Part shown: positions 3,214 to 35,836 of the stretch, piece after piece
Numbering within the stretch: the first letter of the stretch is position 1
Layout of the letters: each line of letters opens with the position of its first letter
NCBI GenBank assembly: GCA_021810525.1
Contig: JAJZIP010000011.1
Location: 1-35,836, forward strand
Origin: Actinomycetes bacterium
GTDB lineage: Bacteria; Actinomycetota; Acidimicrobiia; Acidimicrobiales; Acidimicrobiaceae
DNA: 35,836 nucleotides
Direction: 5' to 3'
The notes under the pieces: model-generated
Told to the model about the DNA's origin: nothing
The model's database searches: none
The model's input: the letters and a program-made list of their open reading frames with translations, nothing else
Position numbers and translations under genes: made by a program

Positions 3214-3249
3214 GTAGCGCACGGTAGTTGCAAGACGGGAGCAGGTTGA

Positions 3250-6718: not shown

Positions 6719-6733
6719 TATTGTTAACGTCAA
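6719..6733 (+). promoter_or_regulatory. Proposed -10 box of the ilvB leader transcript
   Basis: TATTGT (6719-6724) fits the actinobacterial TAnnnT pattern and ends 8 nt before the leader ATG at 6733, so the transcript would begin at or within a base or two of the start codon. No good -35 is seen, as expected if the overlapping inverted repeat binds an activator. Confidence 0.4.
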
Positions 6734-6768
6734 TGAGTAACAGTCTTTTGGTAGTAGTAATCGAATAG
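6733..6768 (+). CDS. ilvB leader peptide MSNSLLVVVIE
   Basis: An 11-codon ORF encodes M-S-N-S-L-L-V-V-V-I-E and ends in TAG. Six consecutive codons specify leucine, valine and isoleucine, the end products of the downstream pathway. The stop codon is the first three bases of the following hairpin. This is the classic design of ribosome-mediated attenuation: when charged branched-chain tRNAs are scarce the ribosome stalls at L-L-V-V-V-I and changes the folding of the leader. No ribosome-binding site is visible, which fits a leaderless start. Confidence 0.85.
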   Translation: MSNSLLVVVIE

Positions 6769-6797
6769 CACACGACGGGACAAATCTTCGTGTGCTA
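6766..6797 (+). promoter_or_regulatory. Pause hairpin of the ilvB attenuator
   Basis: TAGCACACGA (6766-6775) and TCGTGTGCTA (6788-6797) form a perfect 10-bp stem with a 12-nt loop. The 5' arm starts at the leader stop codon, so a ribosome stalled on the Val/Ile codons would block it. The loop contains GGGA (6777-6780), which could pair with TCCC (6805-6808) of the terminator as a short antiterminator. Confidence 0.75.
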
Positions 6798-6802
6798 ATT
6801 GG

Positions 6803-6824
6803 CCTCCCAATCGGGAGGTTTTTT
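6803..6824 (+). terminator. ilvB attenuator terminator
   Basis: CCTCCC (6803-6808) and GGGAGG (6813-6818) pair around AATC and are followed by six T (6819-6824). It lies 20 nt upstream of ilvB, too close to the gene to end anything but the leader. A competing small stem ATTGG/CCAAT spans 6798-6811. Confidence 0.85.
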
Positions 6825-6844
6825 AGTTTATCTGGGAGTGGGAA

Positions 6845-8563
6845 ATGAAGCTTACTGGAGCTCAGGCTTTGATTAAGAGTTTGGAGATGCAGGGCGTCGA
6901 TGTGATGTTCGGCCTTCCAGGTGGTGCCATATTGCCGGTCTATGACCCGATCATCGACTCGCCTATACGCCACATCCTGGTCAGGCATGAGCAAGGAGCT
7001 GGCCATATGGCCGAGGGGTATGCTCAAGCCACCGGAAGGCCTGGAGTGGCTATGGTCACCTCAGGTCCCGCCGCCACTAACATCGTTACCCCCCTGGCCA
7101 ATGCCTATATGGACTCGGTGCCGATCGTGGTCGTCACTGGGCAGGTGGCGACGGGCTCAATTGGATCCGATGCGTTCCAAGAGGCGGACATCACTGGTAT
7201 AACGATGAGTGTGACCAAGCACAACTGGCTGGTGACCGATGCCAATGACATTCCCAATGTTGTCGCAGAGGCCTTTCACGTGGCTACGACCGGGCGTCCT
7301 GGGCCTGTGTTGATCGACTTCCCGAAGGATGTTGCCAATGCCTCGATGGAATGGTACTGGCCGACTTCTGTGGATATGCCGGGCTACAAGCCGAACTCCA
7401 GGGGTCACTCTAAGATGATCGCTGCCGCTGTAAAGATGATGTTCGAATCAACGCGTCCGGTCTTTTACGTCGGTGGCGGCGTGTTGAAGGCGCGCGGCTC
7501 AGAGGCTTTGGCGGAGCTTGTCGAGCTCACGGGGATACCGGTCGTGACCACGCTGATGGCGCGCGGTGCCTTTCCGGACGACCATCCTCTTTGTCTTGGA
7601 ATGCCTGGAATGCACGGAAACTACACCGCGGTCACCTCGATGCAACAGGCCGATCTCCTCATAGCTTTGGGCAGCCGTTTCGACGACCGTGTCACTGGGA
7701 AGCTTGACGGCTTTGCGCCGAATGCCAAGATCATCCACGTGGATATCGATCCAGCGGAGCTTGGAAAGATAAGACGGCCGGATGTCCCGATTGTCGGTGA
7801 TTGCCGCAGCGTGATCGAGGATATCATAAAGGCGATAAAGTCCGATCCTGATGCATTCCAGCAGCGGGCAGATATAAGTGAGTGGGTTGGAACTGTCAAA
7901 GAATGGCAGCAGAAGTACCCTCTCAAGTATGAGCAGCCCTCACTTTCTGGCATTTTGAAGCCCCAGTACGTCATTGAGAAGCTACGCGATGCCGCTCCAA
8001 GTGATACCATTGTGGTCTCTGGGGTTGGCCAGCACCAGATGTGGGCCTCCCAGTACTGGAAGTTCAATCATCCCCATACTTGGATCAACTCAGGTGGTCT
8101 CGGGACGATGGGGTTCGCTGTTCCCGCTGCGATAGGCGCGAAGGTCGGCAAGCCGGATCGCACCGTGTGGGCCGTGGACGGGGATGGATGTTTTCAGATG
8201 ACCGCCCAGGAGCTGGTGACCGCTTCGATGGAGAGAATCCCAATCAAAGTCGCTCTTCTGAACAACTCGTATCTTGGCATGGTGCGCCAATGGCAGGAGA
8301 TGTTCTATGGTGAACGCTATTCCGAGGTCTATCTTTCTCCGGACCTTCCAGATTATGTCAAATGGGCCGAGGCGATGGGATGTGCGGCATTCAGAGTCGA
8401 GAGCGCAGAAGAGGTCGGGCCCGCCATCGAGAAGGCCAGTGAGATAAATGACCGTCCTGTTGTCGTGGAATTTCGCACGGATTCGAGTGAGAAGGTATTT
8501 CCGATGGTTCCAGCAGGAGTTTCAAATGACAACATTATTCTGGGCCCGGAAGGTTTGAACTAA
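6845..8563 (+). CDS. ilvB: Acetolactate synthase large (catalytic) subunit
   Basis: IlvB is the thiamine-diphosphate enzyme that condenses pyruvate with pyruvate or 2-oxobutyrate, the first common step of valine, leucine and isoleucine synthesis. The 572-residue protein has the N-terminal GVDVMFGLPGGAILPVYD motif, the catalytic Glu49 in RHEQGAGHMAEGYA, the FAD-binding middle domain, and the C-terminal ThDP motif beginning GDGCFQM and ending LLNNSYLG. GGGAGTGGG sits directly ahead of ATG 6845. It is the first structural gene behind the attenuator and is followed 2 nt later by the regulatory subunit ilvN. Confidence 0.96.
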   Translation: MKLTGAQALIKSLEMQGVDVMFGLPGGAILPVYDPIIDSPIRHILVRHEQGAGHMAEGYAQATGRPGVAMVTSGPAATNIVTPLANAYMDSVPIVVVTGQVATGSIGSDAFQEADITGITMSVTKHNWLVTDANDIPNVVAEAFHVATTGRPGPVLIDFPKDVANASMEWYWPTSVDMPGYKPNSRGHSKMIAAAVKMMFESTRPVFYVGGGVLKARGSEALAELVELTGIPVVTTLMARGAFPDDHPLCLGMPGMHGNYTAVTSMQQADLLIALGSRFDDRVTGKLDGFAPNAKIIHVDIDPAELGKIRRPDVPIVGDCRSVIEDIIKAIKSDPDAFQQRADISEWVGTVKEWQQKYPLKYEQPSLSGILKPQYVIEKLRDAAPSDTIVVSGVGQHQMWASQYWKFNHPHTWINSGGLGTMGFAVPAAIGAKVGKPDRTVWAVDGDGCFQMTAQELVTASMERIPIKVALLNNSYLGMVRQWQEMFYGERYSEVYLSPDLPDYVKWAEAMGCAAFRVESAEEVGPAIEKASEINDRPVVVEFRTDSSEKVFPMVPAGVSNDNIILGPEGLN

Positions 8564-8565
8564 AA

Positions 8566-9150
8566 ATGAGTATTTCATATATTCCCGGGAATGGGTCGCT
8601 GGTCGATTCCACCGAAAGCGCAAAAGTTATGCACCATCACGTTCTGTCGGTTCTCGTCGAGAACAGAGCCGGCGTGCTTGCCCGCATAGCTCAGCTGTTT
8701 TCTCGGAGGGGGTACAACATCTTTTCACTAGCGGTGGCTCCGACTGACGATAGCCGTTTCTCCCGCATTACCATCGTCGTTGACGTAGATTCGGCTCCGC
8801 TCGAGCAAATCACCAAGCAGCTCCACAAGCTGATTAATGTGATCAAGATCTCCGAACTTGATCCCGCAGACTCTGTCGAGTGCGAGCTTTTAGTCGCAAC
8901 TGTGAATGCCGACATCTCCGCGCGTGGCCATGTGATGGAGCTTGTAGCGCTATTTGATGGCAAGATCATCGACGTGGGGACAGACAAGTTGACGGTACTT
9001 GTCACTGGCGAGCCCGACAAGCTAGATGACTTCTCCGAACTCCTATCGAGTTTCGGAATTGTCGAGTTGCAGAGAACAGGTCGGGTTGCTCTGGCTAAGC
9101 TTGAGCGTCAATCAAACAAATTGAAGAATACTACTGGGAGGGCTGGCTGA
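8566..9150 (+). CDS. ilvN: Acetolactate synthase small (regulatory) subunit
   Basis: IlvN activates IlvB and confers feedback inhibition, typically by valine. The ACT domain is clear ([27 protein letters not shown] near residues 23-50 with [10 protein letters not shown]), followed by the C-terminal half with LVATVNA and GRVALAKL. The frame as called has 194 residues, longer than most IlvN at the N-terminus, and ATG 8566 has no ribosome-binding site. An internal ATG at 8629, just before [11 protein letters not shown], would give a 173-residue protein of standard size, so the start is uncertain. It lies between ilvB (2 nt gap) and ilvC (1 nt gap) and is surely co-transcribed. Confidence 0.93.
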
Positions 9151-9151
9151 A

Positions 9152-10177
9152 ATGGCCACTTTGTATTATGAGGCAGATGCTGACGCTTCTCTGTTGCAGG
9201 GCAAGAAGGTTGCGATAGTGGGCTATGGGTCGCAAGGCCATGCGCATGCGCTGAATCTTGCAGATTCAGGGGTTGACGTGGTGGTGGGGCTCAAAGAAGG
9301 ATCTTCGTCTAGAGACAAGGCTCAGAATGCCGGTCTCAAGGTCGCAAGCGTTGCCGCCGCCACAAAGGACGCCGACCTGGTTATGATTCTCGCACCCGAT
9401 ACCGCTCAGCCTGCAATTTATGAATCAGAGATAGCCCCGAACCTCAAGGCGGGGGCGGCTCTTTCCTTTGCGCATGGATTCAACATCCGTTTTGAGCAGA
9501 TAAAGCCGTCACCAGACGTTGACGTGATAATGATCGCCCCGAAGGGACCGGGCCATCTGGTGCGTCGTACCTACGTGGAGGGTGGCGGAATTCCGTCGTT
9601 GATTGCCGTTTCACAGGATGCGACGGGGAATGCCAAACAGGTCGCCCTGTCATATGCCCATGGCATCGGCTCCACTCGAGCCGGTGTGCTCGAGACGACA
9701 TTCGCGGAGGAGACAGAGACGGACCTGTTTGGAGAGCAGGTGGTCCTCTGTGGCGGATTGGCTGCGCTTGTGACTGCAGGATACGAGACTCTGGTCGGAA
9801 ATGGCTATCAGCCGGAATCGGCATATTTCGAGTGCCTTCATGAACTGAAACTCATCGTAGACCTTCTATATGAGAATGGACTTTCCGGCATGTGGTTCTC
9901 GGTCTCGGAGACGGCAGAATGGGGTGGACTGATCACCGGCCCTCGAATCATCAACGATAGCGTCAAGCAGGAGATGCAGAGGGTCCTTGATGAGATCCAG
10001 AACGGCAAGTTTGCTCAAGAGTGGGTTCAGGAGAACAAGAACGGCCAACCCAGATTCACCGAGCTTCGAAAGGCTGCTGCCTCGCATCCGATCGAAGCGG
10101 TGGGGGCACAGTTGCGGGCGATGATGCCGTTTATGAAGTCTGGCAGGCCGGGCCTCAAGGATGTTTCAGGGGGCTAA
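9152..10177 (+). CDS. ilvC: Ketol-acid reductoisomerase, class I
   Basis: IlvC rearranges and reduces acetolactate or acetohydroxybutyrate to the dihydroxy acids used by IlvD. The 341-residue size marks the short class I form. [12 protein letters not shown] (24-35) is the dinucleotide fold; the following [11 protein letters not shown] loop is rich in serine and Arg, as in NADPH-preferring enzymes. The metal-binding [10 protein letters not shown], the [18 protein letters not shown] segment and SETAEWGGL are intact. The start follows the ilvN stop by one base, and the TAA stop shares a base with the ATG of the next gene, so an exporter permease is coupled to it. Confidence 0.97.
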
Positions 10178-11751
10178 TGACACAGGCCATTGGGGTCGGA
10201 GCCCTCAGGGATCTGTCCAAAGCGCGTCGACACCACTTTGTTGAAAAAGTAGACCTGATAAACGCGATTTATAAGGCTTATCTCGTTGGAGCTGCTCTTC
10301 TGGTGGGCAGCTCCCTTTTGGTTGGCCTGGTGCAGGCAGCGCCCCTTGGGTCGGCAGCGCAAAGAGAGCTAGTGAGATACGGTCCCTCTTATGCCGGGCT
10401 CGCGTTGGGCTTGGTTATATTTGCGGGACTTAGGTCAGGGTCAAGAGGCGGACCGCTGGCTATTCAGGGTGCGGATGTGAGGATGATCCTGCTTTCAGGT
10501 GTGCCAAGATCGCACTTTCTTCGCTCAAAGGCTATTTCGCAGGTCCGCTCCACTGTTGCTCCGGCCCTGTTGGTAGGAGGGATTGTTGGAGGGATTGCCC
10601 ACCGTGCACTTGGAGCAGGTACATTTCGGCTGGTAGTTGAAGGCGCCCTGGTTGGGCTCGTCGGGATCCTAGCATTCTTTGGAAGCGGATACATAGCTTC
10701 CGGACTTCGAGTCAAAAAATGGCTCGCTTTGGCAGTTGGTGCCATTGTAGTTATCTGGGCCGCTGTCGATGTGTTCCATCAGAGCTCCTTCTTCCCGGGA
10801 ACCTGGCTTGGCCAACTATTCTTCAGCCAGGAGCATCTTCCTTATGCCATGGCTACGCTTGGGATAGGTTTGGCCATGCTTGCCGTTGGAATCTCCGTCA
10901 TATCAGGCTTGTCATTGGAGATGCTCGAATACAGGGCACGCCTCGTGGGAACGCTGAGGTTTGCTGCGACGATGCGCGATATCCGCACCGTGATCCTCCT
11001 CAGGAGGCAGCTTTCGGGCGAGAAGGCAAGAGCGGGGCGCTCCTGGCTATCGGGGATGTCCCTGGGTCGTGGCGAGACTGCGGTCGTTTCGAAGAGGTCT
11101 CTAGAGTCGCTCTACCGTTGGCCGCTTGCACGCGTGGGTCGATTCGTTGTTCTCGCTGTTGCTGCGGGATTAGCGGCTCGTCTAATGTGGTCAGGCTCTC
11201 TGTTTCCTCTTGCAGTGGCGATCATCGCTCTTTATGTAGGTGCGACCGACCTCTTGGAGCCGCTCTCTCAGCTTGCCGATCATCCCGACGCCGTCTCCGG
11301 GATTGGTGTGCCGATGGCTGGGGTCGAGTCGAGGCTGCTTCTGGTCCCACTGGTCGGAATGGTCATCTTCGTACTAATCGGGACTTTGGCGACATCGATA
11401 TTCTCTGGTTTCGGCGTTGCGCTTCATGTGGGCTTGATAAGTGCGATTCCTTTGGCAGCGTCTGCTACCACGGGAGCGGCTGTGTCGATTCTGCGCAGGC
11501 AGAAATCGTCGAACATGCCAGCCTTGATGCCTGAGGTCGTGGCTATCACCTCGGTCATAGTCGAAATACTTCCGTTCATAATCGTGGCGTCAGGATTTGT
11601 GGCAATGGTAAATGCATACAATTTGCACGTATTGAATACCTCATTGATCGATACGACTGCAGTATCGGCGGGCTCGTTCTCTCTGGTCTTTCCGTTGGCT
11701 GCGTGGACTTGGATCAGGCGTCGCAACGAATTCTTGCAGAAGAGTGGCTGA
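10177..11751 (+). CDS. Multi-spanning membrane protein, probable ABC exporter permease
   Basis: A 524-residue integral membrane protein with roughly a dozen hydrophobic segments in two blocks (about residues 33-245 and 325-520) separated by a charged cytoplasmic stretch with several Arg and Lys. I recognise no named family. It is called a permease because the next gene, 15 nt on, is an ABC ATPase. The frame is open from 10,021, but ATG 10,177 overlaps the ilvC stop in a TAATG junction, and the protein read from there starts sensibly ([15 protein letters not shown]). The coupling to ilvC suggests co-expression with branched-chain amino-acid synthesis; whether the substrate is an amino acid or unrelated is unknown. 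Confidence 0.7.
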   Translation: MTQAIGVGALRDLSKARRHHFVEKVDLINAIYKAYLVGAALLVGSSLLVGLVQAAPLGSAAQRELVRYGPSYAGLALGLVIFAGLRSGSRGGPLAIQGADVRMILLSGVPRSHFLRSKAISQVRSTVAPALLVGGIVGGIAHRALGAGTFRLVVEGALVGLVGILAFFGSGYIASGLRVKKWLALAVGAIVVIWAAVDVFHQSSFFPGTWLGQLFFSQEHLPYAMATLGIGLAMLAVGISVISGLSLEMLEYRARLVGTLRFAATMRDIRTVILLRRQLSGEKARAGRSWLSGMSLGRGETAVVSKRSLESLYRWPLARVGRFVVLAVAAGLAARLMWSGSLFPLAVAIIALYVGATDLLEPLSQLADHPDAVSGIGVPMAGVESRLLLVPLVGMVIFVLIGTLATSIFSGFGVALHVGLISAIPLAASATTGAAVSILRRQKSSNMPALMPEVVAITSVIVEILPFIIVASGFVAMVNAYNLHVLNTSLIDTTAVSAGSFSLVFPLAAWTWIRRRNEFLQKSG

Positions 11752-11766
11752 GTAAGGAGTCTCATA

Positions 11767-12447
11767 ATGGCAGCTCGTAGCGTGCTCGAGGTGAAAAAAG
11801 TATCCAAGGCATACGATAAGAACGAAGTTCTGAAAGAGGTCTCCTTTGCCGTGAGGGAGGGGGAGATCACCGTCCTCGTGGGTCCGAACGGCTCCGGAAA
11901 GACCACGCTGGTCCGCGCTGTTACCGGTCTCTCTGGTTACGACAGTGGTGAGATCTCCATACTCGGAGCAAAAGCTGGCTCCGATGATGCTCGTAGCGTG
12001 ACTTCGGTATCACTGGATGCGCCGGTCCTATATGACGACATAACCGCTCTCGAGCACCTCGAATTCTCAGCAAGGATTAACGGATTGGATGACTGGGAAG
12101 CCAGGGCGAAAGAACTCTTGTCGACATTCGGGTTGTGGGATCGTAAGGATGATCTGCCGAGCAGCTTCTCGAGAGGCCTGAGGCAGAAGGTTGCGATATC
12201 GATGGCGCTGATCCGTCCACACAAGCTTCTGATCTTTGACGAACCGTTCGTAGGGCTGGACCAAAAAGGCAAAACATCTCTGATCGACCAAGTAAAAGCA
12301 GAGGCAGGGCACGGTGTAGCAATTTTGGTTGCGACGCACTCGGAAGAGTTCCTCTCTGTCGCTGCTTCCATGGTCGGGATGTCCGAAGGTGAGGTTGTCT
12401 ACCGTGGCGCACCTTCAAAAGACCAGTACAACAAGTTAGTTGGCTGA
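11767..12447 (+). CDS. ABC transporter ATP-binding protein
   Basis: A single-domain ATPase of 226 residues with Walker A GPNGSGKT (39-46), a signature in the degenerate form FSRGLRQK (134-141), Walker B LLIFDE (154-159), D-loop GLD and switch His191 (ATHSEE). The usual Q-loop glutamine appears to be replaced in SVSLDAPVLYDD. FSRGL-type signatures are common in ABC-2-like exporters, so export rather than uptake is likely; no substrate-binding protein is nearby. It is preceded by GGAG ahead of ATG 11,767 and follows the membrane protein by 15 nt, making a two-gene exporter at the end of the ilvBNC operon. Confidence 0.88.
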   Translation: MAARSVLEVKKVSKAYDKNEVLKEVSFAVREGEITVLVGPNGSGKTTLVRAVTGLSGYDSGEISILGAKAGSDDARSVTSVSLDAPVLYDDITALEHLEFSARINGLDDWEARAKELLSTFGLWDRKDDLPSSFSRGLRQKVAISMALIRPHKLLIFDEPFVGLDQKGKTSLIDQVKAEAGHGVAILVATHSEEFLSVAASMVGMSEGEVVYRGAPSKDQYNKLVG

Positions 12448-12565
12448 TTCGGAGAAATCCCATCAATAATATAAGAAAAAATCTTCCGTTATATCTTCGA
12501 ATCGATGTACCTTAACAGTAGGGAATAGTTAGATTCCTGCGGCTTATTGGACTGTGGAGCCAGCG

Positions 12566-13255
12566 ATGAAGATAGCCGAACTTGGGCAGGTAAGTTCCGA
12601 TCAAATCTTTTACATGAGATGCACGGAGCATCGCGTGGATCTGGACGGACTTCGTCGTTGGTCGGACGAGCTTGACTCCATGAGCACTGAGGAGCTTATC
12701 GAGAGAGATATCTGTCCAGCCTGTCCTCCATGGTACATAGCTGACGGATTTCCAGTTCTCGAAGCCGTTCATCGAAGTGGCTGGCTTGATTGTGACTGCT
12801 GTGGAACCTCTTGGAGGGTCGTTCCTGGAGGTTGGGAGGCACTGTGCGGCGATGGACTCCTGGAGGAGGACGACGACCTGCGTGCAGAGGCTCGTTACAT
12901 AGAACCAGGCATGAGGCTCACTTCGTCGCAGTTCGAGATTGACACAATCAACCCGGTTGACGCGTCCCTGGATGTTCTTTTCGGTTCGGTTCAACGGTCG
13001 CTTTTTGGTGAGAGCACCACGATCAGCGAAGACGAGGAGCTGACTCGCGACATCTTGGTCTTCAGTCTCGAGCAGGCTTTGTGGGATATGGAGAATGCCG
13101 ATAGCATCGGCGACTTCATTCAAGAAGTTCTTTCGAACCTTGGAATGGACTCGAAGAGGTCGACTCGGATCTTGAACAGCGTGCTGTCCACCTTTCTGGA
13201 GCTGCGCAGGATTCTCGAGAAGGTTGGAAGTAGGGAGGCCAGTCGTCGAGATTGA
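12566..13255 (+). CDS. Uncharacterised cysteine-rich protein, possible zinc ribbon
   Basis: No family recognised. The 229-residue acidic protein has two close cysteine clusters, CPAC (50-53) and CDCC (76-79), 22 residues apart, arranged like a zinc ribbon or rubredoxin-like knuckle, followed by a tryptophan-rich strand (TSWRVVPGGW) and a mainly helical C-terminal half ending LRRILEKVGSREASRRD. I choose ATG 12,566 because GGAG lies 6 nt ahead; a GTG at 12,554 would add four residues but overlaps that site. About 120 nt separate it from the ABC gene and an AT-rich block with TAATAT-like boxes lies between, so it may have its own promoter. It converges on leuA. Confidence 0.65.
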   Translation: MKIAELGQVSSDQIFYMRCTEHRVDLDGLRRWSDELDSMSTEELIERDICPACPPWYIADGFPVLEAVHRSGWLDCDCCGTSWRVVPGGWEALCGDGLLEEDDDLRAEARYIEPGMRLTSSQFEIDTINPVDASLDVLFGSVQRSLFGESTTISEDEELTRDILVFSLEQALWDMENADSIGDFIQEVLSNLGMDSKRSTRILNSVLSTFLELRRILEKVGSREASRRD

Positions 13256-13269
13256 TCATCGACGGCTGG
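13239..13269. terminator. Stem-loop between convergent unknown gene and leuA
   Basis: CCAGTCGTCGA (13,239-13,249) and TCGACGGCTGG (13,259-13,269) form an 11-bp stem with one G-T pair and a 9-nt loop that contains the stop codon of the upstream gene. No T-run follows on either strand, so termination is plausible only from position between two convergent genes. Confidence 0.45.
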
Positions 13270-13307
13270 CTGCAGAAAAGAGCACCTTTCAGTCGGGAAG
13301 GATGCGA

Positions 13308-14852
13308 CTAGGGTCCGACCTCAGTATTGCGCACGTCTTTTCGTGTCATGGAACGGGCAAGGCGATTGACCGCATTGAGATAGGCCCTGGTTGACGCCTC
13401 AACAACATCTGTTGATACGCCGCGTCCTGAGACTTTGAATTCCCCGGACTCAAGCTGCACCACTACCTCGCCCTGAGCATCCTCTCCTCCTGTAACTGAC
13501 GAGACGGTGAAGCCGACCAGCTTGGTCTGGATACCGGTGGCTATCTGAATCGCCTTGCCGGCCGCGTCGATCATACCGTTTCCCTCGGCTCGTGCTTCTC
13601 TTCTCTCGTCGTCTTTTGTTATCACGACCCTTGCGCTTGGGGTCCCTACTGTGCCGCCGCCAACTTCGAGTTCCACGAGACTGTAAATGTTCGCAGCCTC
13701 CGAGCTGATCTCGTCTGCGACAAGGGCTTCGAGGTCTGGTTCTGTTATCTCCATCTTGCGATCAGCAAGTTCTTTGAATCTGAAGAATGCCTGGTTGAGA
13801 GCGTCTCCGTGGACTTCAAATCCCATGTTTTTAAGGGTCTCCGAAAATGCGTGCCTACCGGAGTGTTTTCCGAGCACGATCTGAGATCCCTTCTGTCCCA
13901 CGGTCTCGGCGTCGATGATTTCATAGGTCTCGCGGTCCATAAGGACACCGTGCTGGTGTATGCCGGATTCGTGAGTGAATGCGTTCTTACCCACCACAGC
14001 TTTGTTGTATTGGACCGGATATCCTGTAAGCCTTGACACTAGACGGGAGGTTCGGGCAAGCTCCTCGGTGTGAATCTGAGTTGCGATTGTGGGGAACTGA
14101 TCATGGCGTATCTTGACCGCCATTACTACCTCTTCGAGGGCGGCGTTTCCTGCTCTCTCGCCAAGACCGTTTACGCATACCTCGACCTGTCGGGCTCCTG
14201 CTTGGACACCCGCGAGTGAGTTGGCGGTGGCGAGACCCAGATCGTTATGGCAGTGGGTTGATATAACGTAGTTGCCAGAGATCTGAGACTTGACGTATTG
14301 GATCAAAGCTCCAAAATCCCAGGGTATCCCATATCCCACAGTATCTGGAATGTTCAATGTGGTAGCCCCGGAGTCCACCGCAATCTGGAGAACCTCCAGC
14401 ATGAACTCAAGCGGAGTGCGCGTGGCATCCTGGGGTGAGAACTCCACATCGTGGGTGTGTGACCTCGCTCTCTCGACGCCTTGCCTGGTTTCCGCGAGTA
14501 CCTGTTTGCGGTCCATCTTGAGCATGTGCTCCATGTGCGAAGGGCTGGTGGAGATGAATACATGGATCCGCGCTCGTTCGGCATCTTTAAGAGCCTCCCA
14601 GCATCGATCCACATCACCGAGATGAGTCCTCGAAAGGCCTGCAATTATCGGTCCGTGCACCTGTCGTGCGATTGCCTGAACCGCATCAAAGTCACCCTGG
14701 GAGGCGACAGGAAATCCTGCCTCTATGTAATCGACATTAAGTCGGGCAAGCTGTTCAGCGATCTCAAGTTTTTCGGCAACGTCAAGAGAGATACCGGGTG
14801 ATTGCTCACCGTCCCTCAAAGTTGTGTCGAAGATAATCAACTTTTCATCCAT
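13308..14852 (-). CDS. leuA: 2-isopropylmalate synthase
   Basis: LeuA condenses acetyl-CoA with 2-oxoisovalerate, the committed step of leucine synthesis. The 514-residue protein opens with FDTTLRDGEQSPG, has the metal-binding THCHNDLGLATAN and the GLGERAGNAALEE motif, and ends in a LeuA dimer regulatory domain (from about residue 390, with YLNAVNRL near the C-terminus) that normally gives leucine feedback inhibition. It is the compact bacterial form rather than the roughly 600-residue actinobacterial form. ATG 14,852 follows a purine-rich AGGAAAAGG. It is the only gene behind the leuA attenuator. CimA (25,139) is a separate paralogue with a different N-terminal signature. Confidence 0.95.
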   Translation of the reverse strand: MDEKLIIFDTTLRDGEQSPGISLDVAEKLEIAEQLARLNVDYIEAGFPVASQGDFDAVQAIARQVHGPIIAGLSRTHLGDVDRCWEALKDAERARIHVFISTSPSHMEHMLKMDRKQVLAETRQGVERARSHTHDVEFSPQDATRTPLEFMLEVLQIAVDSGATTLNIPDTVGYGIPWDFGALIQYVKSQISGNYVISTHCHNDLGLATANSLAGVQAGARQVEVCVNGLGERAGNAALEEVVMAVKIRHDQFPTIATQIHTEELARTSRLVSRLTGYPVQYNKAVVGKNAFTHESGIHQHGVLMDRETYEIIDAETVGQKGSQIVLGKHSGRHAFSETLKNMGFEVHGDALNQAFFRFKELADRKMEITEPDLEALVADEISSEAANIYSLVELEVGGGTVGTPSARVVITKDDERREARAEGNGMIDAAGKAIQIATGIQTKLVGFTVSSVTGGEDAQGEVVVQLESGEFKVSGRGVSTDVVEASTRAYLNAVNRLARSMTRKDVRNTEVGP

Positions 14853-14929
14853 CGGGCTTACCTTTTCCTTTCCCTACCGTTTGGCGGGTGCCTATCGCAA
14901 TTACATTCAGATCGCTGAACCGGGCTAAC

Positions 14930-14962
14930 AAAAAACCTCCTGGCCTACGGGCACAGGAGGTT
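14930..14962 (-). terminator. leuA attenuator terminator
   Basis: On the minus strand AACCTCCTG and CAGGAGGTT form a perfect 9-bp stem (plus-strand 14,954-14,962 and 14,934-14,942) with an 11-nt loop, ending in a run of six T (14,935-14,930). It lies about 77 nt upstream of the leuA ATG and directly abuts the preceding hairpin. Confidence 0.9.
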
Positions 14963-14987
14963 CTGCGAGCGTCGGAAACGCTCGCAG
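14963..14987 (-). promoter_or_regulatory. Pause hairpin of the leuA attenuator
   Basis: CTGCGAGCG and CGCTCGCAG form a perfect 9-bp stem with a 7-nt loop. The 5' arm begins at the base right after the leader peptide stop codon, and the 3' arm ends at the base before the terminator stem. Confidence 0.85.
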
Positions 14988-15026
14988 CTATCCAAGAAGG
15001 AGAGTGATCGCAAATGCAATATGCAC
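14988..15026 (-). CDS. leuA leader peptide (V)HIAFAITLLLG
   Basis: A GTG-initiated 12-codon ORF encodes (M)-H-I-A-F-A-I-T-L-L-L-G and stops with TAG directly at the pause hairpin. Three consecutive leucine codons (CTC CTT CTT) lie two codons before the stop, which suits sensing of leucyl-tRNA for leuA. The GTG sits 7 nt behind the proposed -10 box, so translation would start at the 5' end of the transcript. An in-frame TTG at 15,044 would extend it upstream, but it lies before the predicted transcription start. Confidence 0.8.
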   Translation of the reverse strand: MHIAFAITLLLG

Positions 15027-15033
15027 GTCTATA

Positions 15034-15062
15034 TGATTACGCAATTCATGTCCATTCGTCAA
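15034..15062 (-). promoter_or_regulatory. leuA leader promoter
   Basis: On the minus strand TTGACG (15,062-15,057) and TAATCA (15,039-15,034) are 17 nt apart, a good sigma-70 type spacing. The predicted start falls at the leader GTG (15,026). The -35 box lies only 13 nt beyond the stop codon of the methyltransferase gene. Confidence 0.65.
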
Positions 15063-15075
15063 GTCATTCTAGGGG

Positions 15076-15957
15076 TTAGCAGGTAATTTCACGAACATTT
15101 GTCATATCGATCCTGTTCCTGATGATCTTTATCGCCTCTGGGTTTGAGTCTGCTGCGATAAAGCGTCGTCCGAGCTTCTGAGCAACACTTGCAGTTGTCC
15201 CGCTTCCTGCGAAGAAGTCCAGCACCCACGATCCTGGGTTTGACGATGCCTCGACGATGCGCGTAAGGATTCCTTCGGGTTTCTGAGTAGGATAACCGGT
15301 CCGTTCAGCGCCTGCCGTATGGACTATTGTATGCCACCAGACGTCGGTAGGCAGCTTTCCTCTCTCGGCCTTCTCTTTTGTGACCAGTCCCGGCGCCATA
15401 TAAGGTATTCGCTCTATCTCGTTGTAGTTGAAGATGTGCTTTCCTAGCTCCTTGGCATATACCAGAATGGTGTCGTGTTTTGCCGGCCAGCGCCGTTTGG
15501 ATCTGCCGCCGAAGTCGTACGCCCAGATAATCTCATTCATAAAGTTGGACCTTCCAAAGATCTTGTCAAGCTCCACTTTTACGTAGTGAACCTCTCGATA
15601 GTCGAGATGTAGGTAGAGCGATCCGACTTTAGAAAGCAGCCGATGTGATCTCTCTAGCAGTGGTACAAGAAAGCCGCAGTAATCAGCGAATGAATCGTTG
15701 TACCAGTGGGACGACACCAGTCTTGTCCTGTAGGTTCTGCCGCCGAAGCCGGTGCGAGCCGAGTCCGCATCCTGTTCAGCTGTTATGGACGAGAGCCTTT
15801 GGACGGATCCGGTGTTGAACGGAGGATCGATGTAGATGAGATCGATGCTACCTTCAGGGATGGAATCGAGAACGTAAGCAGCGTCAGCCCCTATGACAAG
15901 GTCGGGACTGAGAGAGAGTTCTAGAACTGGCGGTTTTGCAGGTCCGAGACTGCTCAT
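15076..15957 (-). CDS. Orphan DNA methyltransferase (N6-adenine or N4-cytosine), beta-class order
   Basis: A 293-residue site-specific DNA methylase. Catalytic motif DPPF is at 44-47 (LIYIDPPFNTG) and the AdoMet-binding FAGSGT at 249-254; catalytic before AdoMet motif is the beta-class order, as in CcrM or type III Mod proteins. HDTILVYAK and TQKPEGILTRIV are also typical of the family. It lacks the C-terminal extension of CcrM, so target specificity cannot be predicted, and no restriction subunit is visible nearby. It lies 31 nt downstream of serA in the same direction and just before the leuA promoter. A housekeeping orphan methylase of this lineage is more likely than a restriction-modification system. 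Confidence 0.88.
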   Translation of the reverse strand: MSSLGPAKPPVLELSLSPDLVIGADAAYVLDSIPEGSIDLIYIDPPFNTGSVQRLSSITAEQDADSARTGFGGRTYRTRLVSSHWYNDSFADYCGFLVPLLERSHRLLSKVGSLYLHLDYREVHYVKVELDKIFGRSNFMNEIIWAYDFGGRSKRRWPAKHDTILVYAKELGKHIFNYNEIERIPYMAPGLVTKEKAERGKLPTDVWWHTIVHTAGAERTGYPTQKPEGILTRIVEASSNPGSWVLDFFAGSGTTASVAQKLGRRFIAADSNPEAIKIIRNRIDMTNVREITC

Positions 15958-15988
15958 CGTCTTTGTGGTCGAGCTATCTGGGTTTTTC

Positions 15989-29967: not shown

Positions 29968-31380
29968 GTGGATAGTTCTCTCAAGGTTCGGTTCGCGCCG
30001 TCTCCCACTGGCTACTTTCATGTAGGTGGAGCGCGAACGGCGCTGTATAACTGGTTGGTTGCCCGAAAAGCGGGCGGGAAGTTCGTCTTGCGTATAGAAG
30101 ATACCGACGAGACAAGGAACGCAGAGGAGTGGGTGAAAGGAATAATCTCTGCTCTCTCATGGCTCGGGATCACTTGGGACGAGGGGCCATACAGGCAGAC
30201 CGAGAGATCTGAATACTACCAGAGGGCGGTAGACCGCCTGATTGCAGATGACAAGGCGTACTGGTGCGACTGTACCCGAGAGCAGATCGACCAGCGCGCG
30301 AAAGAGCGCGGCGGACCTCCCGGCTATGACGGATACTGCAGGGACAGGTCCAAGGCGAAGATTCCTGGAGCCGCTCTCAGGTTCAAGATTCCGCGCCCGG
30401 GAAAGACTGTGGTGCATGACAAGATCCGCGGGGAGGTCGTTTTCGACCATGACAATCTCGATGATTTCATCATTGTGAAATCCAACGGGTCTCCCTTATT
30501 CGTGCTGGCTAACGTTGTGGACGACATCGAGATGAAGATTACCTACATTATCCGAGCGGAGGAGCACTTGCCGACTACGCCGAAAGCAATCCTGCTCTTT
30601 TACGCACTTGGAGTCGAAGAGCCTCCGCTCTTTGCTCATCTTCCGGTCCTGGTCAACGCCAAGCGGCAAAAGCTCTCGAAGCGACGAGACAGGGTAGCAG
30701 TTGAGGATTATCGCGAGATGGGCTACATTGCGCCCGCTATGGTGAACTATCTAGCCCTACTGGGTTGGAGTCCTGGTGGAGATAGGGAGTTCCTGACAGT
30801 TCAAGAGATGATAGAGCTCTTTGACATCGATCAGGTCAACCACTCTCCCGCATTCTTTGACGAACAGAAGATGCAGCATTTCAATGGTGTCTACATCAGG
30901 GAGCTCACTATCGACCAGTTCGTCAAGGAATGCATGCCGTTTCTAGAAAAGCATGACTGGTGGGTGGGCAGCCCCACGCAGCTCCGGTCCTTTCGCCAAA
31001 TAGCGCCATTGGTTCAGGAGCGGGTGTCGTTGCTGATAGAAGCTCCGGAGATGGTGGCATTTTTGTATCGGCCAGTGGAGATCCCAAGTGACCTTGTAGA
31101 GTCCGTGTTTCGCAAAGACGCTGCATCAGCACGGATTCTAAAAGAGATCAGCGAGGTCTATGCGAATCTGCCTGAGTTCACTGATGATGCGCTGAACGAA
31201 GTCACCCGTGCTTACTGTGAGAGGATCGGTACTCCGCTTCGAAAGGTCCAGGCTCCCATTCGAGTGGCACTCACGGGATCAAAGATTGGTCCACCGTTGT
31301 TCGAGTCCATTGAACTTTTGGGAAGGGATGTCACTTTGCAGAGGCTGGCGTCTGCCGGTGCGCTGATAGGGACGTTGTAG
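29968..31380 (+). CDS. gltX: Glutamyl-tRNA synthetase
   Basis: A class I synthetase that charges tRNA-Glu and, in organisms using GatCAB, also tRNA-Gln. The 470-residue protein begins RFAPSPTGYFHVGGARTALYNW, where HVGG is the HIGH-type motif, and has KRQKLSKRRDRV near residue 233 as the KMSKS equivalent, followed by the anticodon-binding helical domain. A CDC motif (YWCDCTREQ) lies near residue 98. The start GTG 29,968 is required because the conserved N-terminus follows at once. GatCAB is in this window and tRNA-Gln and tRNA-Glu follow within 1.1 kb, so a non-discriminating enzyme is likely, though sequence alone does not prove it. Confidence 0.96.
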   Translation: MDSSLKVRFAPSPTGYFHVGGARTALYNWLVARKAGGKFVLRIEDTDETRNAEEWVKGIISALSWLGITWDEGPYRQTERSEYYQRAVDRLIADDKAYWCDCTREQIDQRAKERGGPPGYDGYCRDRSKAKIPGAALRFKIPRPGKTVVHDKIRGEVVFDHDNLDDFIIVKSNGSPLFVLANVVDDIEMKITYIIRAEEHLPTTPKAILLFYALGVEEPPLFAHLPVLVNAKRQKLSKRRDRVAVEDYREMGYIAPAMVNYLALLGWSPGGDREFLTVQEMIELFDIDQVNHSPAFFDEQKMQHFNGVYIRELTIDQFVKECMPFLEKHDWWVGSPTQLRSFRQIAPLVQERVSLLIEAPEMVAFLYRPVEIPSDLVESVFRKDAASARILKEISEVYANLPEFTDDALNEVTRAYCERIGTPLRKVQAPIRVALTGSKIGPPLFESIELLGRDVTLQRLASAGALIGTL

Positions 31381-31385
31381 ACGTA

Positions 31386-32018
31386 ATGTGTCTGCCAATC
31401 TTGGTGCTGAAGATAGTTCGGCGCGTAGTCACATTGGCGTTGGCGGCCGCGATCGTCTACCTCGGGGTGACCCTGTACCAGGTATATAAGGAAGCCGTCA
31501 CGGCCAAGCCGGTTCATTCACAGGCAATAGTTGTGATGGGCACGGCAGAGTACAACGGAGTTCCCTCTCGCGACCTCGCCGCAAGGCTGAATGAAGCCGA
31601 CTTGTTATTCAAAGAGAAGTACGCGCCAGTTATCTACCTGACTGGCGGTTCGTCCCCCGGCGACAAGTTCACTGAGGCCGGCGTAGGTGTGACATATCTT
31701 GCGAACAAGGGTGTGCCGGCTGCTTCGCTTGTTGCGGATCCTGTCGGCAGGGACACCTGGGAGTCTCTGACCGCTGTTGCAAAGGTTCTTTCGGCTCACA
31801 AGATTCACAGCATCATCATTGTCTCCGATGGATTCCACCTTTTGCGCTGTACACAGATGATGACCTCTCTTGGATTCAAGACAAGTGCTGCCGCGTCTAC
31901 GAACTCCCCAGTCAAGGGCGCGCAGTTGGCCATCGACTACGGGCGGGAGACTCTGGCTGTTGGGGCGGCCCGAATCGTTGGCTATAAAATCCTTTCGATA
32001 GTTCGGCATGGGAGTTGA
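31386..32018 (+). CDS. DUF218 (YdcF/ElyC/SanA-like) membrane-anchored protein
   Basis: A 210-residue protein with one N-terminal membrane segment (about residues 12-32, VVTLALAAAIVYLGVTLYQVY) and an extracytoplasmic DUF218 domain. The domain pattern is visible: QAIVVMGTAEYNGVPSRDLAARLNEAD, VIYLTGGSSPGDKFTEA, KGVPAASL, RDTWESL and the SDGFHLLRCTQMM segment with its His. Relatives act in envelope integrity, but the biochemical role is unsettled. ATG 31,386 lies 5 nt after the gltX stop, so it is read with gltX. Confidence 0.82.
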   Translation: MCLPILVLKIVRRVVTLALAAAIVYLGVTLYQVYKEAVTAKPVHSQAIVVMGTAEYNGVPSRDLAARLNEADLLFKEKYAPVIYLTGGSSPGDKFTEAGVGVTYLANKGVPAASLVADPVGRDTWESLTAVAKVLSAHKIHSIIIVSDGFHLLRCTQMMTSLGFKTSAAASTNSPVKGAQLAIDYGRETLAVGAARIVGYKILSIVRHGS

Positions 32019-32057: not shown

Positions 32058-32129
32058 TCGGGGGTGGTGTAATTGGCAACACTGCAGGTTCTGGTCCTGT
32101 CATTGAGGGTTCGAGTCCTTCCCCCCGAG
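32058..32129 (+). tRNA. tRNA-Gln (anticodon CTG)
   Basis: A full cloverleaf can be drawn: acceptor TCGGGGG with CCCCCGA, D stem GTGT/ACAC, anticodon stem GCAGG/CCTGT with loop TTCTGGT (anticodon CTG at 32,091-32,093), a 4-nt variable loop, T stem GAGGG/CCTTC with loop TTCGAGT, and discriminator G at 32,129. CCA is not encoded. It is probably charged via GluRS and GatCAB. Confidence 0.95.
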
Positions 32130-32360
32130 CGTTGTTGGATCGTTGGAGCAATTCGAGGTTAGATCCCGTTCTCCGGTTTTGGGTAGCCACAGGTTTCTAA
32201 GCCTGTCCCAGTATTGCCGGTTCATTTTGGGGTAAAGCTTATAATTCTGACGGGCGGCGCGAATCGGAGACGGCCCGGTGAAAGATTTCGCCAAATTGGT
32301 GACAACCGACCAACCAAAGTATGTGACGGCTAAGATTTATTAGCTGACAACCACATCAGT

Positions 32361-32436
32361 GGCCCCATCGTCTAGAGGCCTAGGACACTACCCTCTCAAG
32401 GTAGAGACACGGGTTCGAACCCCGTTGGGGCTGCCA
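32361..32436 (+). tRNA. tRNA-Glu (anticodon CTC), CCA encoded
   Basis: Acceptor GGCCCCA pairs with TGGGGCT (one G-T), the anticodon stem CTACC/GGTAG holds loop CTCTCAA with anticodon CTC, and the T arm is ACGGG/CCCGT with TTCGAAC. Discriminator G is at 32,433 and CCA is encoded at 32,434-32,436, unlike in the neighbouring tRNA-Gln. The composition change of the window starts directly behind this CCA. Confidence 0.95.
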
Positions 32437-32563
32437 GTCTTGAGCGTGTTCGAACCGCGCCCGGTACCCGCAAACGGGGCTGGATGAGGCGGCCGTCGTG
32501 CACGTCGACCGAGGCGATCAGTTCGCGCAGCACCGATTTGACAGTGGCGGTCTCACCATGGGT
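32396..32563 (-). pseudogene. C-terminal remnant resembling a serine recombinase
   Basis: A minus-strand frame without a usable start reads ALTHGETATVKSVL, RELIASVDVHDGRL and IQPRLRVPGAVRT, a pattern I know from the C-termini of large actinobacterial serine recombinases. It continues into the antisense of tRNA-Glu as LAAPTGFEPVSLP before a TGA at 32,396-32,398. Upstream of about 32,563 the similarity is lost and no catalytic domain is present. Its position at a tRNA 3' end is that expected of an integrase next to its attachment site. The identification rests on pattern memory over about 45 residues, so it is tentative. Confidence 0.45.
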
Positions 32564-32828
32564 CAAGGCAGCGCCGAGCGCGATGGGCCCTGCCAGGCGG
32601 AGACGCCTCCGCCGATGACCGCCAGGTCGATAGGCACGGCCGCAATGGCCACTGCCAGAGCCAGTGCGCCGTCAATTACAACAACAACGGGAGTCGAAGG
32701 GCGTCGCCTCCTGCCGGGCCGGCAAGCTGGGATGCTGCTCCGGTGGCCATGACTGCTCCAAACGGCAGCCACGGCTGGTCGCTGGCCATAGTTCGGCCAG
32801 GCGGTGCGGCGCCTGTCGCGTGTGTCGT
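32437..32828. other. GC-rich stretch between tRNA-Glu and the UspA remnant
   Basis: 392 nt with no intact gene. The part next to the tRNA holds the recombinase-like fragment. A minus-strand frame at 32,563-33,249 is Arg/Pro-rich in its first half and is mostly a shadow of the UspA reading frames; its tail (VVVVIDGALALAVAIAA, then VPIDLAVIGGGVSAW) looks more protein-like but I cannot assign it. The region reads as decayed DNA. Confidence 0.5.
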
Positions 32829-33265
32829 TCAATGCCGGAACACGAGGACGGGGCAGTGCGGGTGGGCGATGCAGTGCTCGCTGACCGAGCCGAGGAGCAT
32901 GCCGGTGAACTCGCCATGGCCGCGGCTGCCGACGACGAGGAGGTCCGCGCCTACGGATGCCTCGACGAGGATCTGGACCGTGTGACCCTCGGTGACCGAG
33001 GTGTGGATCTCGATGCTGGGGTACCCGGCGTGCAGCTTGGCGACGGCGTCGTCGAGCACCTTGGTCGCTTCGGCGGCAGGATCGAAGCCTTCGGGATGGG
33101 CATGGGGTAGCCGAAGCTGGTCGGCGAATGCCACGTCGTGATCGCGTGCAGGCTGTGGGTGAGCTCGGCTTGGCGGGTTGCCCACTCGGCCGCCGCAATC
33201 GATGCTGACGAGCCGTCGATACCGACGACGATTCGCTTGGCCGGATCACTGCTCGGGCTGGTCAT
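32829..33265 (-). pseudogene. Universal stress protein (UspA family), frameshifted
   Basis: The first half, from ATG 33,265, reads MTSPSSDPAKRIVVGIDGSS and continues to WHSPTSFGYPMP; the second half lies in another frame as HPEGFDPAAEATKVLDDAVAKL and ends with ADLLVVGSRGHGEFTGMLLGSVSEH and CPVLVF. Joined at about 33,090-33,115 they make one standard UspA domain with the ATP-binding GxxGH-G(9)-GS type motif (GSRGHGEFTGMLLGSVS). A single-base indel in the run TACCCCATGCCCATCCC would explain the break. It is either a real pseudogene or a sequencing error. Confidence 0.8.
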
Positions 33266-33439
33266 GATCCCATTCTGCACGGCCTGTCGGGCGTCTGGCA
33301 CATCCCGATCCTCCCGGCGGCGACCACGGTGATCGAGCCCAGGGAACATCGTTCGGTCCGAGCCGACGCATCCGTGAGCGAGCTGCCGGCAGCGCCGACT
33401 GGCATTGCCCAGGACGGGACGAAACCTTGTCGAGTCCGC

Positions 33440-34357
33440 TCACGGTCGTAGGACGAGGCGGCCCTTGACCTGGTGCTCGTCGAGCAGTCGGTGTGCTCGT
33501 GCGGTCTCGGACAGCTCCAGGATCTCGGCGATGCGTGGCTGCCACGGCGTGGTGTGCAGCAGGCGGGTGACGCCGTGCGCGGCGTCGGCGAGGTCTGTGA
33601 CGGGGGCGTTGCTGATGGCGAAGCCGACGATGCTGGCGTCTCGGGTGTAGAGCCGGCCGAGCGGCACGGTTGGCGTCGCGTGCAGTCCGGCCATGACGAC
33701 GAGGCGCCCGCCGCTGGCGAGCCGGTCGATGGCGACGGCGGGCTCAGCTGTCCCCGAGGTGTCGAGGTAGAGGTCGTAGCCTCCGGACGCGGCCCGGTCG
33801 ATCCGTTGGGCGGCGTCGCTCGACGCGTAGTCGATGACCTCTGTCGCGCCGAGCGAGGAGACGAAGTCGAGGTCGTCTGCTCGGGCGCTGGCGATCACCC
33901 TGGCCCCGGCGGCTGCCGCGAAGGCGACGGCGACAAGTTGGGTGGGGTCGAGGTCATGCGGCACCGCATACAGCCGGTCGCCGGGGACGAAGGCGTACTC
34001 GGAGAAGGATCCCTGGCGGCCGGCGTGGCCGAGGCTGTTGGACCACACCTTCTGGCCCCGGCTGTAGGCGGTGGCGCCCGAGCCGGCGGCGATGACCTCG
34101 CCGACGAGGTCTCGGCCGACGACGAAGGGGGTCGGCATGGCGGTTTGATAGGCGCCGGAGCGGACGAAAGTGTCGACGGGGTTGGCGGCGACCGCTGCGA
34201 TCCGCACCAGGTAGTCGGTCGGCCCTGGCTCAGGCAGGGGCAGCTCGCCGTAGCGGATGGACTCGGCAGGGCCCGGTCCGCTGACGTAGGCCGCCCGCAT
34301 CGTCGCCGGAAGCGTCGTGTCCGACCGTGCCCGCAGGCTTCCCTCGGAGTCGGTCAC
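33440..34357 (-). CDS. Zinc-less alcohol dehydrogenase / quinone oxidoreductase-like protein with internal deletion
   Basis: A medium-chain dehydrogenase/reductase relative of 305 residues. The N-terminal GroES-like half (MRAAYVSGPGPAESIRYGEL to QGSFSEYAFVPGDRLYAVP) and C-terminal LDTSGTAEPAVAIDRL, GGRLVVMAG and LYTRDASIVGFAISN are normal. Between DPTQLVAVA and FAAAAGARVIASAR about 40-45 residues are missing, including the GAAGGVG-type nucleotide-binding loop every member needs. The deletion is in frame. The enzyme is unlikely to bind NADPH as it stands. It overlaps the GNAT gene by 4 nt and both read leftward. Confidence 0.75.
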   Translation of the reverse strand: MTDSEGSLRARSDTTLPATMRAAYVSGPGPAESIRYGELPLPEPGPTDYLVRIAAVAANPVDTFVRSGAYQTAMPTPFVVGRDLVGEVIAAGSGATAYSRGQKVWSNSLGHAGRQGSFSEYAFVPGDRLYAVPHDLDPTQLVAVAFAAAAGARVIASARADDLDFVSSLGATEVIDYASSDAAQRIDRAASGGYDLYLDTSGTAEPAVAIDRLASGGRLVVMAGLHATPTVPLGRLYTRDASIVGFAISNAPVTDLADAAHGVTRLLHTTPWQPRIAEILELSETARAHRLLDEHQVKGRLVLRP

Positions 34358-34722
34358 GTCGGGTCGGTGAGGGAGGCGGCGAAGTGGAAGGCGGTGACGC
34401 TCATGCGATGGGCGAAGTAGAAGCGGTGGGCGGCAGCGTTGGTCACCCCGGAGTCGAGCTCGATGGCGGTCGCGCCCGACTCCCGACCGATGACCTCGAC
34501 TGCGTCGAACAGGAAGGCGCCGATCCCTTTCGAGCGAGCATCGGGGTGTGTGACGAGGTCATCGAGGAAGAGGATCCGACCTCGGGTGGTGGCGATCACG
34601 CGGTATCCGGGCGCAGCCTGGGGCGTGCCGTCGCTGTGGTAGGCGACGAGATAACGCAGCCCTTGCACATACCCCTCCGAGATGAGCGCGTCGAACGAGC
34701 GTGGGGTCAGGCCGGGGTGCAA
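34354..34722 (-). CDS. GNAT-family N-acetyltransferase, start unclear
   Basis: A GCN5-related acetyltransferase; the acetyl-CoA site is visible in FLDDLVTHPDARSKGIGAFLFDAV (R-x-x-G-x-G/A), followed by IELDSGVTNAAAHRFYFAHRMSVTAFHF. The substrate is unknown. TTG 34,722 gives 122 residues, but the frame continues upstream in good family sequence (GLDDPRIEADLYPLLRQLHPGLT) without ATG, GTG or another TTG before a TAG. The true start is therefore missing or in a shifted frame: an ATG in another frame near 34,873 is a candidate. Its stop overlaps the following oxidoreductase by 4 nt. Confidence 0.75.
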   Translation of the reverse strand: MHPGLTPRSFDALISEGYVQGLRYLVAYHSDGTPQAAPGYRVIATTRGRILFLDDLVTHPDARSKGIGAFLFDAVEVIGRESGATAIELDSGVTNAAAHRFYFAHRMSVTAFHFAASLTDPT

Positions 34723-34909
34723 CTGGCGAAGGAGGGGATAGAGGTCCGCCTCGATGCGAGGGTCGTCCAGGCCCAGGCCATGGATCTCGAGGCCACTGGT
34801 TACGGTTCGACCTGCCGACCGCCTGAAGGCCGGCGGTCGAACAGCCGCCGGGGCGGCACCGAGGTGGATGTCATCGAGTGACCCCTACTCTTCGACGAGA
34901 TGCCGAGCG

Positions 34910-35671
34910 CTACTTGACGGTTCCGAACGGGTCAGCGACGGCGTGCTGGTTGGCGTTGTTCCAGAAGTTCTGGATGACGAAGCCGTACTCGGGGAGCTGG
35001 TCGGTGAAGGGCTCGAACATGGCATTGCCCGAGGGAAGCTTCCAGTCCGCCTGCAGTTCACAGCCGAGCGCGAACACCGTGACCAGTTCGGCTCCGGAAC
35101 GTGCCATGCGGGACATGGCGGCTTGGGCCTCGTAGTCGTCCCACGCCCCGCAGGCGTCGACGACGGGGAAGACCTTGTAGCCGTCGTTGAGCATCGACAA
35201 GGTGGGCATGGCACAGCACGTCCCGATAGTGACCCCTGCGATGATGACGTGGGTACGTCCGGTCGAACTGAGCAGTTGCTCAAAGGCACTGCGGAAGCTC
35301 GGGTCCTCATAGCAGTTGATGATCCCGGTGCGGCGGTAGATGGGATCCTCGGCGAAGATCTCCTTCAGCTCGGGGAGGGTGTCCCCGTTCTGCCACTGGG
35401 CATTCGACGAGCTCACCAGCACCGGTATACCGAGGGCTTTGGCCATCTTGGCGAGGGCAACGACGTTCGCCTTGTAGGTGGCTAGGTTGGCGAAGTCGCG
35501 TACCCCGACCATGAGGCCGATCTGATGGTCGATGAAGAGCATGACTGAGTTGTCCGGCGTCGGCTTGTCGTAGGGGACGCGGCCCGCGGCAGCAGCGTCG
35601 GCGGACGTCACTTTGGTGGGTAGGACGCTGTCGGTGGTGGGGCTCACGATGTCTTCGGGCCGCTCGGCCAT
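34910..35671 (-). CDS. Isochorismatase-family cysteine hydrolase, YcaC-like
   Basis: A 253-residue hydrolase of the isochorismatase superfamily. The catalytic Asp lies in VMLFIDHQIGLMVGV and the nucleophilic Cys in VTIGTCCAMPTLSML; the layout AGVTIGTCCAMPTLSMLNDG resembles YcaC and related hydrolases of unknown physiological substrate. The frame opens at 35,692, but GGAGGAG lies just ahead of ATG 35,671 (MAERPEDIV), so I take that start. About 50 N-terminal residues precede the domain and are probably flexible. It is the only gene of the GC-rich segment that seems fully intact. Confidence 0.88.
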   Translation of the reverse strand: MAERPEDIVSPTTDSVLPTKVTSADAAAAGRVPYDKPTPDNSVMLFIDHQIGLMVGVRDFANLATYKANVVALAKMAKALGIPVLVSSSNAQWQNGDTLPELKEIFAEDPIYRRTGIINCYEDPSFRSAFEQLLSSTGRTHVIIAGVTIGTCCAMPTLSMLNDGYKVFPVVDACGAWDDYEAQAAMSRMARSGAELVTVFALGCELQADWKLPSGNAMFEPFTDQLPEYGFVIQNFWNNANQHAVADPFGTVK

Positions 35672-35692
35672 GGCTTCTCTCCTCCTGTCCAA

Positions 35693-35836
35693 GTGGGAAG
35701 CACCGCGATTGGAGGCGCTTCCGGTGGCGATCGTGGCCGCGCTGCGCCCCCCGTCGAATCAGGGAGTCCCGGGTCCCCTCCCCGGTCCCGTCCCGAGGAC
35801 CGCGCCCAACTCGCCGCGAGTGCGGATCCCGAGCTT
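35693..35836. other. GC-rich upstream region at window end
   Basis: 144 nt ahead of the YcaC-like gene, C/G-rich with no recognisable gene, repeat or clear promoter. It is cut by the window end. Confidence 0.4.

Follow-up and report, generated by a model that had tools for sequence, protein, structure and literature searches.

What joins the last 3.4 kb of an acidimicrobial contig to the rest of it? The stretch of DNA analysed here (the window, 35,836 nucleotides) is one whole contig, C58, of a metagenome-type assembly of 343 contigs and 3.57 Mb (3,572,381 bases) that is 90.7% complete with 3.2% contamination. The original prediction, made from the letters of the window, had described an abrupt change in composition exactly at the 3' end of a tRNA-Glu gene and had proposed either an integrating element or an assembly misjoin as its origin. 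Both proposals stand: the cause is one of two ordinary things, a genomic island or a chimera.

Composition of the contig changes abruptly at tRNA-Glu

Upstream of the break the contig carries native genes, namely acyl-CoA dehydrogenase-like frames, gltX and a DUF218 gene, which lead into two tRNA genes:

29,968 to 31,380, plus strand: gltX (glutamyl-tRNA synthetase), native (Pfam tRNA-synt_1c, 4.8e-88)
31,386 to 32,018, plus strand: DUF218 membrane protein, native (Pfam DUF218, 6.3e-21)
32,058 to 32,130, plus strand: tRNA-Gln (CTG), native (ARAGORN, Rfam)
32,361 to 32,436, plus strand: tRNA-Glu (CTC), full gene including CCA (ARAGORN; Rfam, 60 bits)

From the DUF218 gene through tRNA-Gln the DNA is 70-77% identical to that of most congeners, and the tRNA-Gln itself is 100% identical in five of them. 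The G+C content rises from 54.3% before tRNA-Glu to 67.8% after it, and the counts first reported for two short segments are exact (34 of 60 bases at 31,861-31,920 and 44 of 60 at 34,081-34,140). The best single change point, located by maximum likelihood, is position 32,420 (log-likelihood gain 117.6), with positions 32,341-32,490 falling within 3 log units of it. As a baseline for the composition of the genome we used 1.02 Mb of the same assembly, comprising 95 contigs and 884 two-kb windows with a mean G+C content of 53.5% (sd 3.07, maximum 60.9%). The tail of C58 reaches 68.8%, approximately 5 sd outside these windows, and the change point of C58 is by far the strongest among the 95 contigs (117 vs 33 for the runner-up). 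GC at the third codon position likewise moves from 58-64% to 82-88% across the break. The composition break is real and far beyond chance.

The tRNA-Glu gene is probably a hybrid

The point of exchange was located by comparing about 50 tRNA-Glu genes base by base. The window gene and those of all eight congeners share T29/A43, while full-length tRNA-Glu genes of other lineages possess C29/G43 or, in one case, G29/C43. At position 60 the window has C, a base also found in several other lineages, where 8/8 congeners have T. The tRNA-Glu of the window is therefore probably a hybrid of a native 5' part and a foreign 3' part, the latter marked by one base. On this comparison the join most likely lies between 32,404 and 32,420, inside the 3' half of the gene, an interval in agreement with the GC change point at 32,420. 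The predicted break and its tie to the tRNA hold, and its position directly after CCA is replaced by this internal one. It is possible, at perhaps one chance in ten given 0/8 congeners, that C60 is a private native change in the species, in which case the interval would widen to the end of the tRNA.

32,404 to 32,420, no strand: junction interval (last genus-specific base 32,403, position 43; first non-genus base 32,420, position 60)
32,405 to 32,563, minus strand: 53-residue antisense reading frame that extends into the 3' end of the tRNA, kept in genome G086

The antisense frame recurs in bases 23-124 of G086 contig C293 with 74% identity (E 4e-13). It matched no family in Pfam or NCBIfam and may be what is left of a recombinase C-terminus beside an attachment site.

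The tail matches a GC-richer actinobacterial lineage

The DNA beyond the tRNA encodes four genes, all on the minus strand:

32,437 to 35,836, no strand: foreign tail, 67.8% GC, reaching the contig end (DNA matches to another lineage)
32,829 to 33,349, minus strand: disrupted universal stress protein gene (Pfam Usp in each half)
33,440 to 34,357, minus strand: quinone oxidoreductase / zinc-type alcohol dehydrogenase (Pfam ADH_N, ADH_zinc_N)
34,354 to 34,722, minus strand: GNAT acetyltransferase (Pfam Acetyltransf_1, 1.3e-10)
34,910 to 35,692, minus strand: isochorismatase-family hydrolase, YcaC-like (Pfam Isochorismatase, 5e-19; NCBIfam YcaC, 2e-46, below cut-off)

No match to the tail is present in any of the eight congeners, and 27 further genomes of the host's family yielded one weak match only. 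In a scan of named genomes the nearest dehydrogenase was found in the metagenome-assembled genomes (MAGs) LSA5.bin8 and MAS3.bin166, both labelled Actinomycetes bacterium. These two genomes, G060 and G061 (69% GC), are 80-87% identical to the tail at the DNA level over 32,822-34,953 and show the same gene order of stress protein and dehydrogenase, with the acetyltransferase following in one of them. Two further genomes match other parts: G092 covers the isochorismatase part of the tail, 34,658-35,701, at 92% identity, and G086 covers 32,438-32,578 at 84%. The start of the matching G086 contig falls one base past the window's tRNA boundary, as is expected beside a repeated attachment site. Among 35 genomes of the foreign family none qualifies as the donor, with no match exceeding 92% over a part. 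On the strength of these DNA matches the tail is assigned to a different, GC-richer (69% GC) actinobacterial lineage of another family. This is the outcome of the taxonomic placement of the downstream genes, which had been proposed earlier as a check.

Two other sources were considered and rejected. No relative of the dehydrogenase or the isochorismatase gene was found in a viral collection. Plasmid records gave scattered single-gene matches only (20 at 60-80% identity and two at 80-90%), none of them containing most of the tail.

Compared with their relatives, two of the tail genes look broken, like decaying island cargo. A one-base deletion near 33,095 disrupts the stress protein gene, which is a single 158-residue frame in G060 and G061, and a 111-base in-frame gap relative to G061 leaves the dehydrogenase short of about 37 residues, among them its glycine-rich NAD(P) loop. 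Such decay says little about which genome carries these two genes.

In the GC-rich family, integrating elements favour tRNA-Glu

In G060, a gltX-like frame also directly precedes tRNA-Glu. Contig C190 of this genome contains a full tRNA-Glu at 31,725-31,800 followed by partial 3' copies at 34,736, 36,122 and 40,930; partial copies in the foreign family span position 30 or 33 to position 76. Directly after the copy at 36,122 comes a tyrosine integrase (Pfam Phage_integrase, PF00589); the full tRNA-Glu of G061 contig C36 is directly followed by integrase N-terminal and central domains. The two genomes are 99% identical in shared parts and differ by one whole element: in G061, which is without the first element, the full tRNA leads straight into the DNA that G060 has after its second copy. 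In both genomes the stress protein-dehydrogenase block lies just beyond the tRNA-Glu array. tRNA-Glu is thus a hot spot of integrating elements in this family.

Tandem copies of the tRNA-Glu 3' end were located in G060:C190:25000-44999 at 6726-15974 and in G061:C210 at 2779-3364. G086 carries a Cas3 gene with HD and helicase domains 84 bases after its tRNA-Glu (G086:C68, 188-2503).

The native continuation is present in the source genome and unjoined to C58

In congeners with long enough contigs, tRNA-Glu is followed by DNA of approximately 51-54% GC that encodes an amidohydrolase, an aldolase-like protein, a PabC-like aminotransferase, an XdhC-like protein and a transketolase, names assigned by reading the translations. 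The source genome contains the amidohydrolase (88% identity) and the aminotransferase (80%) in the congener arrangement on contig C203 (3,696 bases, 54% GC). This contig starts inside a cupin gene, a cupin gene also being located near tRNA-Glu in the congener G007, and overlaps contig C286 at its other end. The native continuation is therefore kept in the source genome (C203/C286), unjoined to C58. The original prediction held that continuous coverage with homologous gene order in relatives would refute a chimera; gene order is discontinuous across the break, which leaves the chimera reading unrefuted.

A search of the source assembly recovered neither the native DNA between tRNA-Glu and C203 nor the genes for a PadR-like protein and a membrane protein with which some congeners continue after the tRNA. 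Of the glyoxalase-like gene it yielded a distant relative only, and the cupin gene was found in C210, in C88 and as the fragment at the end of C203. The start of the cupin gene is duplicated as 103 identical bases (C210, 2931-3033, and C203, 1-103), one copy leading to the amidohydrolase and the other to a dehydrogenase/peptidase operon. This duplication is probably where the assembly broke.

A genomic island is slightly favoured over an assembly chimera

The two causes make overlapping predictions. Both an island and a chimera place the join inside a conserved tRNA, and both bring in DNA that neighbours tRNA-Glu in the donor. Between them we slightly favour the island: the tail is, at slightly better than even likelihood, the tRNA-proximal end of a genuine, partly sequenced genomic island at tRNA-Glu. 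This weight and the one given to a chimera below are judgements and not computed probabilities.

tRNA genes are the usual target of genomic islands, as outlined for Islander-type islands (PMC4383910). Two properties of such islands are observed here, an abrupt foreign composition that starts in the 3' end of a tRNA gene and an uninterrupted site in close relatives, where the native block follows tRNA-Glu. Overlaps of exactly 126 bases, with divergence beyond them, recur at several contig ends of the source assembly and imply an assembly word length k of about 127. Since this exceeds the 76 bases of the tRNA, the tRNA alone could not have joined two contigs, and real molecules should carry the junction. 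The join could nonetheless have been inherited from an earlier assembly round with shorter words.

In the favoured scenario, an island from a GC-rich actinobacterial lineage would sit in the tRNA-Glu of the sampled population, with C58 carrying only its first 3.4 kb. The tail would have arrived by site-specific recombination that exchanged the 3' part of the tRNA while leaving a full gene. The integrase and a second attachment copy would be located in the unsampled part of the island, beyond which the native block (C203) would resume. The more specific proposal of a cross-family island, with parents approximately 14% GC apart, tRNA-Glu as a common attachment site, exchange at the 3' (T-arm) side and a hybrid tRNA recording both parents, is tentative, its likelihood falling a little short of even.

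Absence of an att repeat and of an integrase had been named in advance as weakening an island. No displaced copy of the tRNA-Glu 3' end is present in the window or in the rest of the 3.57-Mb assembly, itself incomplete, and a Pfam search of the 3.4-kb tail detected neither an integrase nor any other mobility gene. The source genome has ten integrases, whose identity to the foreign family's integrases is low (30-37%). These results do weaken the island reading, which has at the same time gained new support from the probable hybrid tRNA, from a donor-like lineage with a tRNA-Glu hot spot and from a word length greater than the tRNA. Either the contig, ending after 3.4 kb, stops short of the fragment and integrase, or the join itself is not real. 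The position of the tail at a contig end, its unseen far boundary and a possibly composite genome also count against an island. The tail resembles the left end of an island without counting as a proven one.

The strongest rival, to which we give an appreciable but lesser weight, is a chimera formed during assembly or in the library, in which C58 switches at the conserved 3' end of tRNA-Glu into a co-sampled GC-rich actinobacterium and C203 is the true continuation. Two unrelated lineages on one contig, with the break near a contig end and at a universally conserved gene, are what a chimera would produce. The missing att repeat and integrase, the native block present but unjoined and the lack of any comparable stretch in 1.02 Mb of the same genome are in line with it, as is the fact that the matching DNA of the foreign family likewise adjoins a tRNA-Glu copy. 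Contig C95 has an abrupt shift as well, its first 600 bases, beside a transposase-like gene, reaching 68.7% GC, and the assembly is possibly composite. Against a chimera, the bridge would consist of only 16 identical bases (32,404-32,419) if the native tRNA has T60, or about 33 with C60, as judged from relatives of the donor, and a k of about 127 exceeds the whole tRNA, although a smaller k is possible in earlier rounds. Misassembly is moreover described as relatively rare in MAGs (PMC8201837).

A mixed population, in which a real island is present in only some co-binned strains and the assembler took the minority path, is improbable. Single-base differences between contig ends within long overlaps point to strain variation, and the genome exceeds those of its congeners in size (3.57 Mb compared with 1.9-2.6 Mb), but the assembly shows no direct sign of two tRNA-Glu versions. 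Least probable of all, and rejected, is a native high-GC accessory region reflecting an ordinary local composition change: stretches of up to 61% GC do occur elsewhere in the genome, but the tail is a composition outlier, has no homologue in the congeners and finds its best DNA matches (80-92%) in another family.

Relation to known islands and chimeric contigs

As outlined for Islander-type islands (PMC4383910), the junction lies in a tRNA gene that remains complete, composition is foreign and the genes are accessory; the same tRNA is moreover a hot spot in a related family. In contrast to that outline, neither an integrase nor a tRNA fragment displaced to a far end is seen at the locus. It resembles the tRNA-Glu arrays of the GC-rich family (G060:C190, G061:C210) in the tRNA used, in the side of it that is occupied and in the stress protein-dehydrogenase block, which there follows the array. 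Unlike the window, those arrays possess partial tRNA copies and adjoining tyrosine integrases. Chimeric MAG contigs (PMC8201837) similarly combine two lineages, with the switch at a conserved gene close to where the contig ends, but the shared bridge here is far shorter than the inferred word length.

If the join is real, the locus adds a further cross-family case to the known islands at tRNA genes, and the hybrid tRNA would narrow the exchange site to 17 bases. If it is not, four genes have been wrongly credited to the species. Either way, the last 3.4 kb is unfit for describing the gene content of this genome without read support.

Other contigs of the source genome, including C13, C88, C90 and C150, have 47-49% GC compared with 54% in the majority. 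Together with the oversized genome, they suggest that two or more populations may be merged in the assembly. In contig C95, the GC-rich first 600 bases lie upstream of the transposase-like gene and the rest has 51.5% GC. A second chimera with the same donor is not supported at this end, whose matches are short and weak (best 75% identity); it may be another contig end that is foreign or misjoined.
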